The notes under the pieces: model-generated
The model's input: only the letters and a program-made list of their open reading frames with translations
Told to the model about the DNA's origin: nothing
Database searches by the model: none
DNA from: a virus
IMG/VR virus record: IMGVR_UViG_3300048573_000007
Coordinates: 1-20,241 of that record
Strand: one strand, 5' to 3'
Length of the DNA: 20,241 nt
Program-made: the position numbers and the translations under genes
Shown: piece by piece, positions 1-9,581 of the stretch
Layout: the number at the start of each line of letters is the position of its first letter
Numbering within the stretch: the first letter of the stretch is position 1

Positions 1-942
1 CAAAGCAGTAGTATGAAAGACAAACAAGCTCTTAAAGAAGCTGCTGAACTCATCAAAGAGTATCTGATGCTTAACAAACGTATCAGTCAGATTGAGTCAT
101 GGTTAGAGGCTGTGGGTAAGGATGGTAGAGTTCACGGTAAAGTAATTACTAATGGAGCGGTAACGGGCAGAGCTACCCATTCATCGCCAAACCTTGCACA
201 GATACCTAACACCTCATCTGTGTACGGTGCTGAGTGCCGACAGTGTTGGACAGTAGAGGAAGGGAATGTGCAGGTTGGTGTCGACTTATCTGGTGTAGAG
301 TTGAGGTGTTTGTCTCACTATATGCAAGATACTGAATGGCAGCGTGAATTGTTGGAAGGCGATGTACACTGGAAGAACACACAAGCTTTCGGCTTAGTTC
401 CTATGGGTACGTTGAAGGAAGACACAAAGGAGCATAAAGATGCCCGTAACTTGAGCAAGACACTGACCTATAGTGTGCTGTATGGAGCAGGAGCAGCTAA
501 GGTCGGCTCTACTGTTGGAGGATCAGCGAAGCAGGGAGCTAAACTAATTGACAATTTTTTGAATAACACACCTTCTTTAAAGAAGTTGAAGGCAAAGGTT
601 GATAAGTTAGCGGCTAAGGGCTTTGTTCCAGCTATTGATGGAAGGAAAATATGGGTACGATCTGAACATGCTGCCTTGAATAGTCTGCTACAATCAGCAG
701 GGGCTATCATTGCAAAGCAGTGGATCGTTTGTTTTACTGATGAGCTGAAGTCAAAGAAAATACCTTATAAGCTACTCGCATGGGTGCATGATGAGGTACA
801 ATTAGAGACTCCAGCAGAATATGGAGAAATTGTGGGTAAGATTGTTGCTGAAGCAGCTACGACAGCAGGGGATATGCTAAATTTCCGTTGTCCTATCGCT
901 GCTGAATATCGTGTGGGTAAGAATTGGTATGACTGCCACTAA
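1..942 (+). CDS. DNA polymerase family A (T7 gp5-like), C-terminal part
   Basis: Replicative DNA polymerase; the palm and fingers of a T7 gp5-type enzyme are visible. The frame is open to the window edge, so the true start and any exonuclease domain lie upstream; the first ATG in view (13) is probably internal. Numbering from that Met: motif A is VGVDLSGVELR with catalytic D91; motif B is RNLSKTLTYSVLYG with R145, K149, Y153; motif C is HDEVQ with D260. The preceding GAVTGRATHSSPNLAQIP segment is also family-typical. The protein ends in NWYDCH, matching the conserved terminal His of T7 gp5. Y153 is at the position of E. coli Pol I F762 and T7 Y526. It should act with the ssb, exonuclease and endonuclease genes just downstream. 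Family certain; only the length is unknown. Confidence 0.95.
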   Translation, partial: QSSSMKDKQALKEAAELIKEYLMLNKRISQIESWLEAVGKDGRVHGKVITNGAVTGRATHSSPNLAQIPNTSSVYGAECRQCWTVEEGNVQVGVDLSGVELRCLSHYMQDTEWQRELLEGDVHWKNTQAFGLVPMGTLKEDTKEHKDARNLSKTLTYSVLYGAGAAKVGSTVGGSAKQGAKLIDNFLNNTPSLKKLKAKVDKLAAKGFVPAIDGRKIWVRSEHAALNSLLQSAGAIIAKQWIVCFTDELKSKKIPYKLLAWVHDEVQLETPAEYGEIVGKIVAEAATTAGDMLNFRCPIAAEYRVGKNWYDCH

Positions 943-1202: not shown

Positions 1203-1616
1203 ATGGATAACAAACCAGTCAAAGTCTCCGGTCAACTCTTTTGGGCTAACTGGATGAAGGAACATAACACCAAGTTCAATGAAGACAACACCAAGTACGA
1301 ATGTACACTCGGTATGCTCTCTGACAAGGCTTGTGAGGCTCTTAAGGGCTTGGGTATTGTGATCAAGAACAAAGACACGATGGGTAACTACATTGTTGGT
1401 AAGTCCAAGTTCGTGTTTGAGCCTGTGGACACTGAGGGTAATCCTGTTGATATCAGCAAGATCGGTAACGGCACTAAGGTAACTGCTTTGGTTGGTAGCT
1501 ATCGTCACAAGATGAGTGCCAAGTACGGTGCTGCTCCCTCGATCAGTAAGTTGATCGTTACTGACTTGGTTGTCTACGGCGAAGACGTTGACGGCGACGA
1601 TGACGACATCCTCTAA
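1203..1616 (+). CDS. single-stranded DNA-binding protein (T7 gp2.5-like)
   Basis: A 137-aa protein that would coat ssDNA during replication and recombination. The N-terminal two-thirds (VKVSGQLFWANWMKEHN onward) is compatible with the OB-fold SSBs of T7-like phages. The C-terminus is strongly acidic (EDVDGDDDDIL, 127-137) and ends in a hydrophobic residue, the hallmark tail by which SSBs contact polymerase, helicase and nucleases. AGGA lies 9 nt before the ATG, inside a small hairpin. It is the first protein gene after the promoter and tRNA. The acidic-tail codons overlap the start of the next gene. At 137 aa it is shorter than T7 gp2.5 (232 aa). Function rests on tail and context rather than clear fold motifs. 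Confidence 0.8.
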   Translation: MDNKPVKVSGQLFWANWMKEHNTKFNEDNTKYECTLGMLSDKACEALKGLGIVIKNKDTMGNYIVGKSKFVFEPVDTEGNPVDISKIGNGTKVTALVGSYRHKMSAKYGAAPSISKLIVTDLVVYGEDVDGDDDDIL

Positions 1617-2460
1617 GGAGAAACTTCAGATATCTTTTAGCGGTGGGCGCACAAGTGCTTACATGACAAAACTTATCTTAGATAACTGGAAAGATAAGTA
1701 CGATTTCATTGTTACTTTTGCTAACACCGGTAAAGAGCATCCTAAAACATTAGAATTTATTCATAACTGTGATACAATCTTTGGTTTTAATACAGTATGG
1801 CTAGAGGCTAATGTTTTTATGGATGAGCGCAAGGGAACAGGCTTTAAAATAGTATCTTATGAGACAGCTAGTAGGAACGGAAAACCGTTTGAACAAGTTA
1901 TTCGAAAGTACGGTATTTCTAATCCTAGTTACCTGCACTGCACAAGAGAACTTAAATTAGCACCTATGCGGTCTTATCTTGCAAGCTTAGGAATTAACCA
2001 TAAAGAAATTCCTACTGCTATCGGGATACGTGCAGATGAGAAGAGGCGAATCAGTAAAACAGCAGGAGTAGATAATATTATTTATCCTCTAATTACTGAA
2101 TGGCCTTCTGACAAACAAGATGTTCTTGATTTTTGGGAAGATCAGTTGTTTGATTTAGGTTTAGATGAATGGGATGGAAACTGTGTCGGCTGCTTTAAGA
2201 AGTCATTTAAGAAGATTTTTAAACAACTTGACACAGATTCCACTTCTCTGGATTGGCATAATAAGATGGAACAGAAATACGGTTCCGTAAAATGCCCTAT
2301 AGAAAATACTAAACGTGTTTTTTTTAGAGGAAATACATCAGCAGAAGGAGTGATTGAAATGTGGAAACAAGACAGAGAAAACACCCCGACACAGTTAAGT
2401 CTTGATTTATATGAAAACGGAGGATGCTCAGAGTCCTGTGAGGTGTATGAGTCAGCCTAA
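1600..2460 (+). CDS. PAPS reductase-family PP-loop protein
   Basis: A 286-aa member of the phosphoadenosine phosphosulfate reductase/ATP-pyrophosphatase superfamily (adenylate-binding alpha-hydrolase fold). The PP-loop is SFSGGRTSAYM (residues 12-22). Other landmarks are HCTRELKLAPM (113-123), typical of phage members, NCVGC (194-198) and a C-terminal CSESC (276-280). C114, C195, C198, C232, C276 and C280 could include Fe-S ligands, as in DndC-type relatives; that is inference. ATG1600 overlaps ssb by 17 nt but has no Shine-Dalgarno. An in-frame TTG lies at 1570, and a perfect AAGGAG (1615-1620) precedes only an ATA codon at 1630. Candidate roles are sulfur transfer to DNA or tRNA, or an adenylation reaction; true PAPS reduction is not shown. 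No dnd partners are visible here. Confidence 0.8.
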   Translation: MTTSSKEKLQISFSGGRTSAYMTKLILDNWKDKYDFIVTFANTGKEHPKTLEFIHNCDTIFGFNTVWLEANVFMDERKGTGFKIVSYETASRNGKPFEQVIRKYGISNPSYLHCTRELKLAPMRSYLASLGINHKEIPTAIGIRADEKRRISKTAGVDNIIYPLITEWPSDKQDVLDFWEDQLFDLGLDEWDGNCVGCFKKSFKKIFKQLDTDSTSLDWHNKMEQKYGSVKCPIENTKRVFFRGNTSAEGVIEMWKQDRENTPTQLSLDLYENGGCSESCEVYESA

Positions 2461-3154
2461 GATTGCACTGATTGATGCTGACTTTTTAGTCTACCGTATA
2501 GGGTTTACTACAGAAGATGCACCTATTGGAGTGGCTAAGGCCAGGTTAACGGAATGGTTAGAAGACTTTATCTATATCAATCTCAAAGCTGATCATTACA
2601 AGGCTTGGATTACTGGAAGAGGAAACTACCGTTATGACATTGCCAAGACAGTCCCTTATAAAGGCAACCGTAAAGATGTATTGAGGCCTAAGCACTACGA
2701 AGCCCTGCGGGAGCATCTAGTCAAGCGTCACGATGCTATCGTTACAGTTGGTGAGGAAGCTGATGATGCCGTAGCCATTGACTCCAATAAGCTCTTGGAT
2801 GAGTGCTGGATTGTTCATGTGGATAAGGATCTTGATCAGCTTCAGGGATGGCATTACAATCCTGTTCGAGATGAAAGATACTATGTCGATGATTTTAACT
2901 CCTTTAAGTCTTTTGTTTCGCAGTTACTTACGGGGGATAGGATTGACAACATCCCGTGCTTGGCAGGAATTGGCCCTAAAAAGGCTGAAAAAGCGCTTAA
3001 AGATGCAAAGACGAAAGAAGAATTACTCCAAGCAGCGTGGGGAAAGTATCAAGAACTTGGACATACGTTGGAGTATTTTACAGAACAAGGTCAACTACTT
3101 TGGTTGAGACGTTATGAAGGAGAACTATGGCAACCGCCAAACAAGTTGCAATGA
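2447..3154 (+). CDS. 5'-3' exonuclease (T7 gp6 / FEN-like)
   Basis: Metal-dependent 5' nuclease that removes RNA primers and degrades duplex 5' ends, feeding nucleotides to phage synthesis. Of 235 residues, conserved acids are D10 (IALIDADFLVYR), E103/E104 and D106/D107 (GEEADDAV), D126/D128 (VDKDLDQL) and D164/D167 (GDRIDNIP), followed by a helix-three-turn-helix, GIGPKKAEKAL (174-184). I chose ATG2447 because homology begins right after it; this gives a 14-nt overlap with the PP-loop gene. Its nearest GAGG is only 3 nt away, so an upstream start (GTG2438, ATG2411 or TTG2402, adding 3-15 residues) is possible. The 3' end overlaps endonuclease I by 28 nt. Confidence 0.9.
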   Translation: MSQPKIALIDADFLVYRIGFTTEDAPIGVAKARLTEWLEDFIYINLKADHYKAWITGRGNYRYDIAKTVPYKGNRKDVLRPKHYEALREHLVKRHDAIVTVGEEADDAVAIDSNKLLDECWIVHVDKDLDQLQGWHYNPVRDERYYVDDFNSFKSFVSQLLTGDRIDNIPCLAGIGPKKAEKALKDAKTKEELLQAAWGKYQELGHTLEYFTEQGQLLWLRRYEGELWQPPNKLQ

Positions 3155-4898: not shown

Positions 4899-5683
4899 TG
4901 GATAAACCACTGCGGATTCTCTGTATTCCTGATACGCAGTGTAAGCCAGATACGCCTACCGAGCACCTTGAATGGGCAGGTAAGGCTATCTGTGATTACC
5001 GTCCTGACGTTGTTGTTCACCTAGGAGACCATTGGGATTTTCCTAGTTTGAGCAGCCACGATAAAGCCGGTAGCAAATACTTTGAAGGTAAGCGCTATCT
5101 TGCTGACGTTGAAGCAGGCAACAAAGGAATGAATGTATTGCTAGCTCCTTTGAAGACTCTTCAGAAAACTCAGAAGACTGCCAAACATAAGGTGTATAAG
5201 CCTCGTTTGGTCTTCTTAAAAGGAAACCATTGTAATCGGCTTACGCGGGCAGTGCAAAACAACCCGATGCTGGAAGGATTAATGACATATGATCATCTTA
5301 ATCTCAAAGATTGGGAAGTCCATGATTTCCTCCATCCTGTATTTATCAATGGTGTTGGTTTTAATCACTATTGGCCTACAGGAGCGATGGGACGACCAGC
5401 GGGTACTGCTAGTGCTCTTGTCAACAAGCTTCATATGTCTGTCGTGGCAGGCCATCAACAAGGAAAACAGATCGCCTATGGCAAGCGTGCTGACGGGAAG
5501 CCTATCTGTGGTATTATCGCCGGTAGCTACTATTTACATGATGAGTCGTATATGGACAAACTGAGTAATCGTCATTGGCGTGGCTTGGTTGTCTTAAATG
5601 ATGTTAAAGATGGTAGCTTTGATGAAATGCTGCTCTCTATCGAGTACCTGGAAAGGAAGTACAATGACAGCAAACAAATGTAA
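4898..5683 (+). CDS. calcineurin-like metallophosphoesterase
   Basis: A 261-aa binuclear metal phosphoesterase; phage relatives are often annotated as phosphatase or DNA-repair exonuclease, and the true substrate is unknown. Motifs in order are IPDTQ (D12, with Gln14 where Asp-x-His is usual), HLGDHWD (D44, D47), FLKGNH (N110, H111), GFNHYWP (H157) and AGHQQ (H186, where GHxH is usual). The fold is thus complete but two commonly histidine positions are Gln. The start shares TGATG with the preceding stop, and AAGGA lies about 9 nt upstream. It overlaps the next gene by 20 nt. The family is secure; the substrate is not. Confidence 0.9.
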   Translation: MDKPLRILCIPDTQCKPDTPTEHLEWAGKAICDYRPDVVVHLGDHWDFPSLSSHDKAGSKYFEGKRYLADVEAGNKGMNVLLAPLKTLQKTQKTAKHKVYKPRLVFLKGNHCNRLTRAVQNNPMLEGLMTYDHLNLKDWEVHDFLHPVFINGVGFNHYWPTGAMGRPAGTASALVNKLHMSVVAGHQQGKQIAYGKRADGKPICGIIAGSYYLHDESYMDKLSNRHWRGLVVLNDVKDGSFDEMLLSIEYLERKYNDSKQM

Positions 5684-6119
5684 CACTTGCTTTTATGCAC
5701 GAATGGACAAAGAACTTGAAGCTCCTTGTGCAGGCTGCACAGGGTATTCAAACTATGTCAGCGATCAGTTGTATGCTTCTGAGCATACTTATAAGCCTCT
5801 TAAGGAATCTATTGATGAATGGTTTAAGCGAGGCAATGGAGTCTCCAAAGAAGACTTCTGGATCAAGGCTGAGTATGATACAGTGAGTAAACCTAAGCAC
5901 TATATGTTGTTTGAGGAGGAAGGTATTGAAGTTCGGGATGTTATTGAGAAGCTGGTAAAGAAACTGGATCATCATGGCTACAGCGGGATGTTCATTGCTG
6001 ATTATGTGCAGATGATGCAGTACCTCATGCGCTTTATGGAAAAGAATGGTAAAGAAGACCTAGAAAAAAGTCTCTGGTACTTGCCTAAACTAATTGAAGC
6101 TTATGAATCTGACCTTTGA
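5664..6119 (+). CDS. DUF3310-type protein with N-terminal Cys4 motif
   Basis: A 151-aa protein. Residues 76-148 resemble DUF3310, the domain seen in phage nucleotide-kinase-like proteins related to T7 gp1.7: KPKHYM, GIEVRDVIEKLV (87-98), YVQMMQYLMRFMEKNGKEDL (114-133) and a final YLPKLIE helix. Ahead of it lies a likely zinc-binding knuckle, CNTC (C6, C9) and CAGC (C22, C25), joined by a linker. AAGGAAG (about 5655-5661) precedes ATG5664, and the gene overlaps the phosphoesterase by 20 nt. DUF3310 recognition is from pattern memory; kinase activity is not demonstrated here. It probably works in nucleotide metabolism like its neighbours. Confidence 0.75.
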   Translation: MTANKCNTCFYARMDKELEAPCAGCTGYSNYVSDQLYASEHTYKPLKESIDEWFKRGNGVSKEDFWIKAEYDTVSKPKHYMLFEEEGIEVRDVIEKLVKKLDHHGYSGMFIADYVQMMQYLMRFMEKNGKEDLEKSLWYLPKLIEAYESDL

Positions 6120-6258: not shown

Positions 6259-7211
6259 GAAACCTTCTAACAAAGAAGACAACATACACCTTCGACTATC
6301 CAGAGGCTTTGGCCTTTGCAGATAAACAGAATGGTGTATTCTGGACTTTTGATGAGATTGACCTGGAGAAAGATGTACACAGTATTCTTACCGACTTTAC
6401 TCCTGCTGAACGTCATGGTGTTACTACTGCACTCAAACTCTTTACCAAGTATGAACTCATTGTGGGTAACGAGTATTGGTCTGGTACTGTTAAACCTAAC
6501 TTTCAGCATCCTGATATTGAGTTGATGGCTGATGCCTTCTGCTACTTTGAAAGTAATGTGCATGCACGCTTTTACAACAGGATTAACGAACTGCTTGGAT
6601 TGGCTACTGAGGAGTTCCATCAGTCTTGGCAGTATGATCCTGTATTGGCTAGCCGTATTGGGTACTTGGACACTATTGTTAGTGGTCGTGATGTTCCCCT
6701 TTCCTTGGCAGTCTTCAGTATGATGGAAGGTTGTGTCTTGTACTCTAGCTTTGCTTTCTTGAAGCACTTCCAGAGTAATGGTAAGAATAAACTGAGTAAC
6801 CTTGTGGCAGGTATCAACTTCTCTGTACGAGATGAGAATATCCACCATGAAGCAGGTGCTTGGCTGTTCCGCACATACATGGAAGAGAATAAGCTAGATA
6901 AGGTATGGATGAAAGCACGAGTTGAGCAAGCTGCTAAGGCATTGGTTGAGCATGAGCACCGTATCGTTGATCTGTTGTTCTCTCATGGGGACATTGAAGG
7001 CATCAACGCTACAGCTATGAAAGCCTTCGTCAATGCACGAGCTAACATCTGCTTGAACAATCTTGGCTTTGACAGTATCTTTGATGAAACTGGTGATACA
7101 ATCTCTGAGTGGTTTTACTTGGGTATTAGTACAGCCACAATTCATGATTTTTTTAGTAAGGTGGGCAACTCGTACCACCGTAAGTGGAATGAAAGGGCTT
7201 TTACATGGTGA
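6255..7211 (+). CDS. nrdB: ribonucleotide reductase class I, beta subunit
   Basis: The radical-generating small subunit (318 aa) of the enzyme that reduces ribonucleotides to deoxyribonucleotides. Likely ligands and radical site: E67 (FTKYELIV), E99 and H103 (FESNVHARFY), Y107 as the tyrosyl radical position, E158 (MMEGCVLYSSF), E194 and H197 (RDENIHHEAG). The C-terminal YHRKWNERAFTW is the kind of tail that docks into the alpha subunit. E99 lies four residues before H103, whereas the E. coli protein has E115-x-x-H118. GGGAG sits 5 nt before ATG6255, which overlaps the preceding stop. The partner nrdA follows after an inserted HNH gene. Confidence 0.96.
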   Translation: MRNLLTKKTTYTFDYPEALAFADKQNGVFWTFDEIDLEKDVHSILTDFTPAERHGVTTALKLFTKYELIVGNEYWSGTVKPNFQHPDIELMADAFCYFESNVHARFYNRINELLGLATEEFHQSWQYDPVLASRIGYLDTIVSGRDVPLSLAVFSMMEGCVLYSSFAFLKHFQSNGKNKLSNLVAGINFSVRDENIHHEAGAWLFRTYMEENKLDKVWMKARVEQAAKALVEHEHRIVDLLFSHGDIEGINATAMKAFVNARANICLNNLGFDSIFDETGDTISEWFYLGISTATIHDFFSKVGNSYHRKWNERAFTW

Positions 7212-7678
7212 TACAATCAAAGTACGATGCTGAAATACAAGATAGGTTTTTCTATGACGGTGCGTGTTTAAGGTACCACATATCTGGAGAGAAAGCTGGA
7301 ACTTTATCTGCTAATGGCTATCTGATGGTAACAGTTCTCGGAAAACAGCTTTATGTGCATCGTATATGTTGGTTTCTTGTCTACAGGGAATGGCCTACAA
7401 AAAACATAGACCATATCAATGGAGATAAAACAGATAACAATATGTCAAATTTACGTGAAGCAACACATTCACAGAACGGCTGTAACCGTCTGAACTCAGC
7501 TAACAAGTCTGGACGTAAGAATGTGTACTGGAGCAACACACGTAATCGTTGGGTGATTGATATTACCTTAAATCGTGTCCGAGTCTTTCACAAAGTGGTG
7601 GAAGATTATGATGAGGCTGTTGCGCTTGCAAAAGCTAAAATGGATGAACTACATGGAGAATTTGCACGTTATGAGTAA
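7205..7678 (+). CDS. HNH homing endonuclease with AP2-like domain
   Basis: A free-standing homing endonuclease, 157 aa. The HNH core is at 50-87: YVHRICWFLVY, then IDHINGDKTDNNMSNLREAT, with H70, N80 and N82 prominent. An AP2-type DNA-binding tail follows at about 101-155 (SGRKNVYWSNTRNRWVIDI, YDEAVALAKAKMDELHG). It lies between nrdB (7-nt overlap) and nrdA (8-nt overlap), a position analogous to mobE in T4. GAAAGG lies 8 nt before ATG7205. Codon use is more AT-rich than in the flanking genes, fitting independent arrival. It should cut related phages lacking the insertion and spread by gene conversion. It is not part of an intron: both flanking genes are intact. Confidence 0.93.
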   Translation: MVIQSKYDAEIQDRFFYDGACLRYHISGEKAGTLSANGYLMVTVLGKQLYVHRICWFLVYREWPTKNIDHINGDKTDNNMSNLREATHSQNGCNRLNSANKSGRKNVYWSNTRNRWVIDITLNRVRVFHKVVEDYDEAVALAKAKMDELHGEFARYE

Positions 7679-9395: not shown

Positions 9396-9581
9396 ATGAA
9401 GATTGTAGTCTACAGCAAGGAGAACTGCCCTGCTTGTACGACTCTGAAGGCTCGTCTGACTAAGGAAGGCGAGTCCTTTACAGAGATCGTGGTAGGTAAA
9501 GATATGACCCGTGAGGAGTTCCTTGAGAAGTTCCCGCAGGTGCGTATGATGCCTCATTTGGTATTCGCGAATGGCGAATAA
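9396..9581 (+). CDS. short glutaredoxin-like protein
   Basis: Thiol-disulfide carrier expected to re-reduce the nrdA C-terminal cysteines. The 61-aa protein has the first beta-alpha-beta of the thioredoxin fold: KIVVYSKENCPACTTLKARL with redox motif C11PAC14, and the cis-Pro strand MMPHLVF (Pro at about 53). It stops at FANGE, so the last strand/helix of typical 75-90-aa glutaredoxins is missing or minimal. AAGGAG is 4 nt before the ATG, and the gene follows nrdA by 12 nt. The function is strongly supported by motif and position; whether the short form is fully active is open. Confidence 0.88.
   Translation: MKIVVYSKENCPACTTLKARLTKEGESFTEIVVGKDMTREEFLEKFPQVRMMPHLVFANGE
9562..9580 (+). repeat. 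hairpin over the glutaredoxin stop codon
   Basis: TATTCGC (9562-9568) and GCGAATA (9574-9580) form a 7-bp stem with a 5-nt loop, overlapping the TAA stop (9579-9581). There is no T-run after it, so it is not a classic terminator. It might be an mRNA processing or stability element between glutaredoxin and phoH, or chance. Confidence 0.4.

Follow-up and report, generated by a model that had tools for sequence, protein, structure and literature searches.

The gene at positions 1600 to 2460 of the stretch of viral DNA analyzed here (20,241 bases, hereafter the window) is, judged by its sequence, a new member of a known phage family, that of NinC of lambda (PHROG 424), an identity that the earlier note on this DNA had not recognized. 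We propose that its product is an SspD/DndC-like PP-loop enzyme that may move sulfur onto phage DNA, a reading that we hold tentatively and judge to fall just short of probable. The gene and the neighbors that matter to the argument are as follows.

1600..2460, + strand: NinC-family PP-loop gene, predicted [4Fe-4S] sulfurtransferase, 286 aa (PF01507, PHROG 424, PADLOC SspD)
1203..1616, + strand: upstream gene whose end overlaps the NinC start, possibly for an ssDNA-binding protein (from its position and acidic C-terminus)
2447..3154, + strand: 5'-3' exonuclease gene overlapping the NinC end (PHROG 107, E 7.7e-60)
13..942, + strand: family A DNA polymerase, C-terminal part (PHROG 17, E 4.4e-93)

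The NinC-family frame runs for 286 codons from an ATG at 1600 to a TAA stop at 2458-2460. Its first 17 nt also belong to the upstream gene, and at its 3' end it runs into the 5'-3' exonuclease gene. The gene is real and under strong purifying selection (dN/dS ∼0.04): the ratio is 0.043 against the relative L002 and 0.036 against L001, where dS is near saturation, and substitutions relative to a third relative are saturated. From this low dN/dS it follows that the protein is used.

Assignment to the NinC family follows from a nearly full-length match of the window protein to PHROG 424 (E 9.5e-49), taken together with its tblastn kinship to lambda-type NinC; its only Pfam match is to the broad family PF01507 (29.6 bits). 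When the window protein was used as the tblastn query, matches were found in 474 of 50,697 phage records, every one below 60% identity, and these relatives include lambda-type NinC, Chi-like phages, many Vibrio phages, and a jumbo Tenacibaculum phage. NinC of Escherichia phage 4W, for example, shows 29.6% identity across 95% (tblastn). The NinC rows form a single clade in the first of our two trees (26/26, support 100/98). Lambda NinC itself (Orf290) has the same motifs and the same five cysteines as the window protein, at ∼30% identity over ∼95% of the length, but lambda-type NinC has MDTG where the window protein has FANTG and is without its C57. The settings also differ, in that lambda ninC sits in the nin region whereas the window gene adjoins a 5'-3' exonuclease gene. 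The family is usually annotated as "PAPS reductase", and a passage of PMC5463345 takes such a phage gene as a sulfate-activation gene. Our literature search returned no paper joining NinC, PAPS reductase, and phage, and the titles and abstract openings that it returned hold no tie of NinC to SspD/DndC, from which we do not claim absence from print. Lambda ninC is not needed for plaques, according to an excerpt of PMC10695390, and the lambda interaction map lists no partner for NinC in the portion of PMC3224144 at hand; dispensability and the absent partner would be in keeping with a requirement for the gene against certain hosts only and, equally, with a minor effect.

The sequence features on which the functional reading rests are these.

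1639..1656, + strand: PP-loop SGGRTS, residues 14-19, with Thr/Ser where SGGxDS has Asp
1717..1731, + strand: FANTG, residues 40-44; lambda-type relatives, SspD, and CysH have Asp in place of the Asn
1936..1965, + strand: HCTRELKLAP with C114, residues 113-122, common to DndC and SspD (WCTxxMKxxP)
2176..2193, + strand: GNCVGC with C195/C198, which align with the CxxC of SspD and DndC and are predicted Fe-S ligands
2422..2442, + strand: GCSESCE at the C-terminus with C276/C280, a tail that the model leaves disordered; a terminal Cys pair is found in SspD too

The search for relative loci matched at least 599 stretches, of which 80 loci were kept. Conservation was read from 62 non-redundant relatives, to which a 92% identity cutoff had reduced 82 sequences, and from a lambda-type set of 54 sequences left from 80 NinC matches by the same 92% identity filter. 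All five cysteines, C114 (CTxxxK), C195/C198 (CxxC), and C276/C280 (CxxxC), are invariant in 62/62 relatives, as are S14, G15, G16, and S19 of the PP-loop, the motif F40-G44, the residues K119, G142, R144, D146, E147, and R150, and, further on, G193-C195, C198, K200, K201, K205, and R243. The earlier note had the open reading frame, its coordinates, the PP-loop letters, and the CxxC and CxxxC clusters as we find them. It had also called the PP-loop intact, which is right for SGGRTS at residues 14-19 but not for the canonical Asp: residue 18, the Asp of SGGxDS, is Thr in 60/62 relatives and Ser in the other two, never Asp, and in the lambda-type set it is Thr in 48/54 and Ser in 6/54. The replacement of Asp by Thr/Ser may have abolished or altered ATP-pyrophosphatase chemistry. 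C114, C195, and C198 are present in 54/54 lambda-type sequences, C276 in 50/54, and C280 in 52/54. Four lambda-type copies (L200, L216, L240, and L254) are without the C-terminal cysteine pair, possibly a natural loss of a sulfur-relay tail; in L200 and L216 a separate Dam gene lies 1.2-1.3 kb off.

Profile comparisons favor a position nearest SspD for the NinC family, on the DndC/SspD side rather than that of CysH. The PADLOC SspD model matches the window protein (E 5.6e-13) and 62/62 relatives (best 2.1e-23), where the BrxP model matches 29 and two DndC models match 13 and 8. In hhalign, the NinC profile aligns with SspD at prob 99.0 (E 7.5e-18), with CysH at prob 92.2 (E 6e-7), and with DndC at prob 81.9 (E 1.1e-5), which places DndC below CysH; no DndC model is among the NCBIfam matches to the window protein at E <= 10. 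The likeness to DndC drawn in the earlier note is upheld insofar as profiles, PADLOC, and cysteines put the protein with the Fe-S-type enzymes of the SspD/DndC side, but SspD fits better.

DndC, SspD, CysH, and CysD comparators were gathered from whole genomes and aligned with the NinC rows. SspD (4/4) and DndC (7/7) resemble NinC in having C-T-x3-K plus CxxC. SspD further shares the PP-loop domain, WCTxxMKxxP, and a Cys pair at the extreme C-terminus, but its tail reads ACxxC where NinC has GCxxSCE (CxxC vs CxxxC spacing), and its PP-loop is SGGKDS in 4/4 where the NinC family has SGG[RK]TS, with Thr/Ser at residue 18. Unlike NinC, DndC has open frames of 541-626 codons, SGGKDS, no C-terminal Cys pair, and an extra Cys shortly before CxxC, a loop Cys that is absent from NinC; the three aligned positions of its Fe-S cysteines are present in NinC. 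These are Cys146, Cys280, and Cys283, which a passage of PMC12193691 describes as the three cysteines common with APS reductase for a 4Fe-4S cluster. APS-type CysH has CC-x3-K and PAPS-type CysH has neither CTxxxK nor CxxC, whereas NinC has both. CysH also differs in lacking an SGG PP-loop and in its single catalytic Cys within an ECGLH tail (6/6 CysH/APR comparators), which no NinC row has, and it is like NinC in supplying the best solved-structure matches of the window model. BrxP of type 4 BREX, whose PADLOC model matches the NinC relatives more weakly than that of SspD, is often fused to DUF4007 (an excerpt of PMC12839542), unlike NinC. Among RNA thiolases, NcsA (6scy) gives a weak match with the profile (E 1.4).

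Trees were built from chosen subsets of 50 rows (first) and 45 rows (second), the second leaving out the long rows L012, L133, L150, L156, and L157. In the first tree, with L156 included, NinC groups with SspD at 82/84; in the second, NinC joins SspD in 67% of bootstraps, and the clade is broken. The second tree, unrooted, separates NinC, SspD, and DndC from CysH and CysD at 94/94, in 92% of 200 bootstrap trees. The topologies that unite NinC with DndC (p-AU 0.201) or with CysH and CysD (support 24/20) are not rejected, and as a sister group of the NinC sequences the trees are compatible with SspD, DndC, or CysH+CysD. With 535 codons, the long row L156 is an SspD-like open frame that carries SGGIDS, RSGCKMC, and a Cys pair at its C-terminus; it may be a fused PT-type enzyme.

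An AlphaFold2 model of the window protein has a mean pLDDT of 92.0 and a pTM of 0.89, with pLDDT <50 for residues 273-280 in the C-terminal cysteine tail. The best Foldseek match of the model is CysH 6vpu (E 9.1e-5), and APS reductase 2goy, LarE, and NcsA are also matched. In VIA-align, where rows within 1 Z were taken as tied, the PAPS/APS reductases among the rows listed have Z 11.8-13.1 (rmsd 3.3-4.0 over 160-183 residues), and GMP synthetases (Z ∼11), [4Fe-4S] LarE (11.2), NcsA (11.1), and TtuA (∼10) are among them as well. Taken alone, the modeled fold says PP-loop/sulfonucleotide reductase class. The closest solved chain by sequence is chain C of PDB 21fy (PptA; E 0.054, and 0.027 with the profile), which carries the motifs FSCGAPS and NNCVGC; our literature search found no explanation of the name PptA.

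The link to DNA is drawn from the lambda-type relatives and from neighboring genes, which include those for DNA polymerase, helicase-primase, and exonuclease. In Vibrio phage 34E29.1, a single ORF joins a Dam domain (PF05869, E 1.8e-38) to NinC, and a gene of phage 44E38.1 is annotated as "Dam methyltransferase with PAPS reductase domain". Searching IMG/VR with the fused NinC-Dam query gave 80 loci, 76 of them with a NinC match. NinC and Dam share one ORF in 14 of the 80 (and in 2 isolates besides), a Dam ORF overlaps NinC directly upstream in 6, and a Dam ORF lies 1.2-2.2 kb from NinC in another 6, numbers that are not frequencies because the fused query is biased towards Dam; the other 54 loci, including 4 with Dam only, have no Dam beside NinC. 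Pfam confirmed Dam in 7/7 tested IMG/VR fusions and 2/2 tested upstream genes. Both gene orders are found, and in L201 and L217 the Dam stop is overlapped by the NinC ATG. Because the fused proteins are mutually related, the number of fusion events may be small. No fusion is present in window-type loci (0/113), where a Dam-like ORF occurs in 1/113 (L029); we saw the Dam fusion only in the lambda-type subfamily. Fusion and overlap with Dam in these relatives point to DNA rather than tRNA.

The same association would also suit the maker of a non-PT DNA modification that leaves the backbone free of sulfur, such as a base hypermodification derived from sulfur and built jointly with a base methyltransferase. 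Among the 16 fusions examined, 13 have an NPPY motif, and L014 has NCPY; a C5-MTase, as well as MT-A70, EcoRI-type, and N6/N4 MTases, lies close to some NinC relatives. As neighbors we scanned, on either side of NinC, the nearest ORF with 80 aa or more, dropping those >900 aa (116 genes, first 25 families per scan). Among the matches listed for these 116 nearest neighbors, the raw counts are 2 for MT-A70 and 1 each for EcoRI methylase and N6_N4_Mtase, alongside 8 for DNA_pol_A, 5 for AAA_25, 3 for T7 helicase-primase, and 3 for 5_3_exonuc. Most window-type relatives, however, are without an MTase found adjoining, and we consider this alternative unlikely, although it is the best placed of the four that we weighed.

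A PF00266 cysteine desulfurase was found in 0/16 NinC phage records (control 14/14) and DndD likewise in 0/16 (positive control, 4/4 dnd genomes); SspB-like PF13182 gave 0/16 with a control that was silent too. For the window, the search for partner genes is bounded by the fragment itself, which spans 20 kb. As neither desulfurase nor DndD is present in NinC phages, NinC alone cannot be a complete phosphorothioation system, and any sulfur must be host-derived. Passages of PMC8569181 and PMC10853773 describe IscS as able to replace DndA, and in an excerpt of PMC12707154 DndC/SspD is the final sulfur donor ahead of insertion.

In the mechanism that we propose, C114, C195, and C198 would hold a [4Fe-4S] cluster, one iron of which would not be ligated by these residues as Thr here occupies the place of the second Cys in the CC pair of APS reductase. 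Three-Cys clusters with an open iron occur in LarE- and TtuA-type sulfur transferases. In NinC, either the open iron or the mobile pair of C-terminal cysteines would take sulfur from the host cysteine desulfurase IscS, which is our candidate donor because NinC phages carry no cysteine desulfurase. The PP-loop would bind a target-activating nucleotide, and sulfur would be placed in the backbone or a base of DNA as it replicates or recombines, with some phages coordinating this with Dam methylation; the purpose may be to mark or protect phage DNA. A more specific form of the proposal is a stand-alone viral DNA sulfur-modification enzyme, lambda's included, that would work with a noncanonical SGGxTS PP-loop and host IscS and, in part of the family, would write sulfur and methyl marks together as one polypeptide or operon with Dam. 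This form we also regard as unlikely, though less so than any of the four alternatives. Against the DNA-sulfur reading we count the change of the PP-loop Asp, the missing desulfurase and DndD, the dispensability in lambda, the Dam fusion seen in one subfamily only, the rank of CysH above DndC in hhalign, the range of sister groups that the trees allow, and the fact that phosphorothioate is not known in lambda DNA.

Some of these points would be expected of a catalytically altered SspD/DndC-like decoy or regulator, which, by binding DNA, persulfide carriers, or the PT machinery of the host, would blunt PT-based defense instead of modifying DNA itself. The Asp of SGGxDS is replaced in 116/116 sequences (62 + 54), the partner genes are absent from NinC phages, and ninC is dispensable in lambda (PMC10695390, as excerpted). 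Yet the five cysteines, K119, R144, D146, E147, and R150 are invariant in 62/62 relatives, which is the pattern of an active site, and fusion to Dam suits a modifying enzyme. A decoy is thus a doubtful explanation, second among the alternatives.

The ssb-NinC-exonuclease order of the earlier note stands for the exonuclease by PHROG 107, the Pfam match of which is below the curated cutoff; the ssb at 1203-1616 is without HMM support, with no PHROG at E <= 0.1 and no meaningful Pfam match. The gene at 1203-1616 is conserved and clustered in 9 loci, and its C-terminus is acidic like that of ssDNA-binding proteins. As a fixed order the arrangement was rejected, for in L015 and L016 NinC follows a c11 gene and in L018 and L019 it lies beside c0/c9 genes. 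An upstream ORF of at least 60 codons ends between -25 and +39 nt from the NinC start in 79/114 loci, and these ORFs fall into BLAST clusters of at most 5 loci, mostly singletons. Ten of them compared with PHROGs gave an HNH endonuclease, an endolysin, a terminase small subunit, a pyrophosphatase, and unknowns. A constant upstream partner was rejected on these unrelated products and tiny clusters, and with such varied upstream ORFs NinC resembles a cassette that is translationally coupled but has no constant partner.

Profiles also identify endonuclease I, ThyX, MazG, PhoH, and a ClpP-like protease in the window. At 5598-6119 is a nucleotide kinase-like protein (PHROG 236, E 7.1e-15) whose cluster occurs in 12 relative loci. 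An HNH_3 endonuclease gene (7205-7678, E 4e-13) between nrdB and nrdA, both ORFs read by eye, resembles a homing endonuclease insertion. A short glutaredoxin gene (9396-9581, PF00462, E 2.6e-8) lies 3' of an ORF that we took by eye for ribonucleotide reductase; the glutaredoxin could also serve an Fe-S enzyme as reductant.

A tRNA-Leu(UAA) lies at 1066-1150, 450 bp upstream of the NinC gene, and an enzyme like TtcA, NcsA, or TtuA that thiolates tRNA or other RNA, possibly the phage tRNA-Leu, and tunes translation in the infected cell would share the fold class (NcsA and TtuA, with the Z values above). ARAGORN, however, finds a tRNA in just 3/60 relative loci, one of these of uncertain type, and on that count a link to tRNA as a general rule was rejected; moreover, SspD is closer than any RNA thiolase met in the profile searches, and some lambda-type relatives are fused or coupled to a DNA methyltransferase. 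We therefore rank RNA thiolation third among the alternatives and regard it as rather improbable. Of the DNA or RNA target suggested in the earlier note, DNA gains from the Dam fusion and coupling in part of the family, but the nearby tRNA does not hold up. A true PAPS/APS reductase serving sulfate assimilation, as the customary auxiliary-metabolic-gene label has it, is very improbable, since the PF01507 match, the Foldseek match to CysH 6vpu, and the PAPS/APS reductases at the top of the VIA-align rows listed are set against the lack of the ECGLH catalytic tail present in all six CysH/APR comparators, a much greater distance of the NinC profile from CysH than from SspD (the two grounds on which CysH was rejected as the leading reading, the tree alone being compatible with it), and the absence of sulfate-assimilation genes among the window genes examined, an apartness that the earlier note had rightly pointed out.

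On these comparisons the evidence takes the NinC family away from sulfate assimilation and closer to the sulfur chemistry of nucleic acids, with DNA appearing a more likely target than RNA. Hundreds of phage genomes, lambda included, carry a NinC-family gene, often labeled "PAPS reductase". If NinC puts sulfur on nucleic acid, the sulfate-assimilation inferences in phage papers, such as that in the passage of PMC5463345, would need revision. The function of lambda ninC, an orphan for decades, would become directly testable as that of a DNA-modifying enzyme with existing strains, and the family would be a viral counterpart to bacterial phosphorothioate defense systems.
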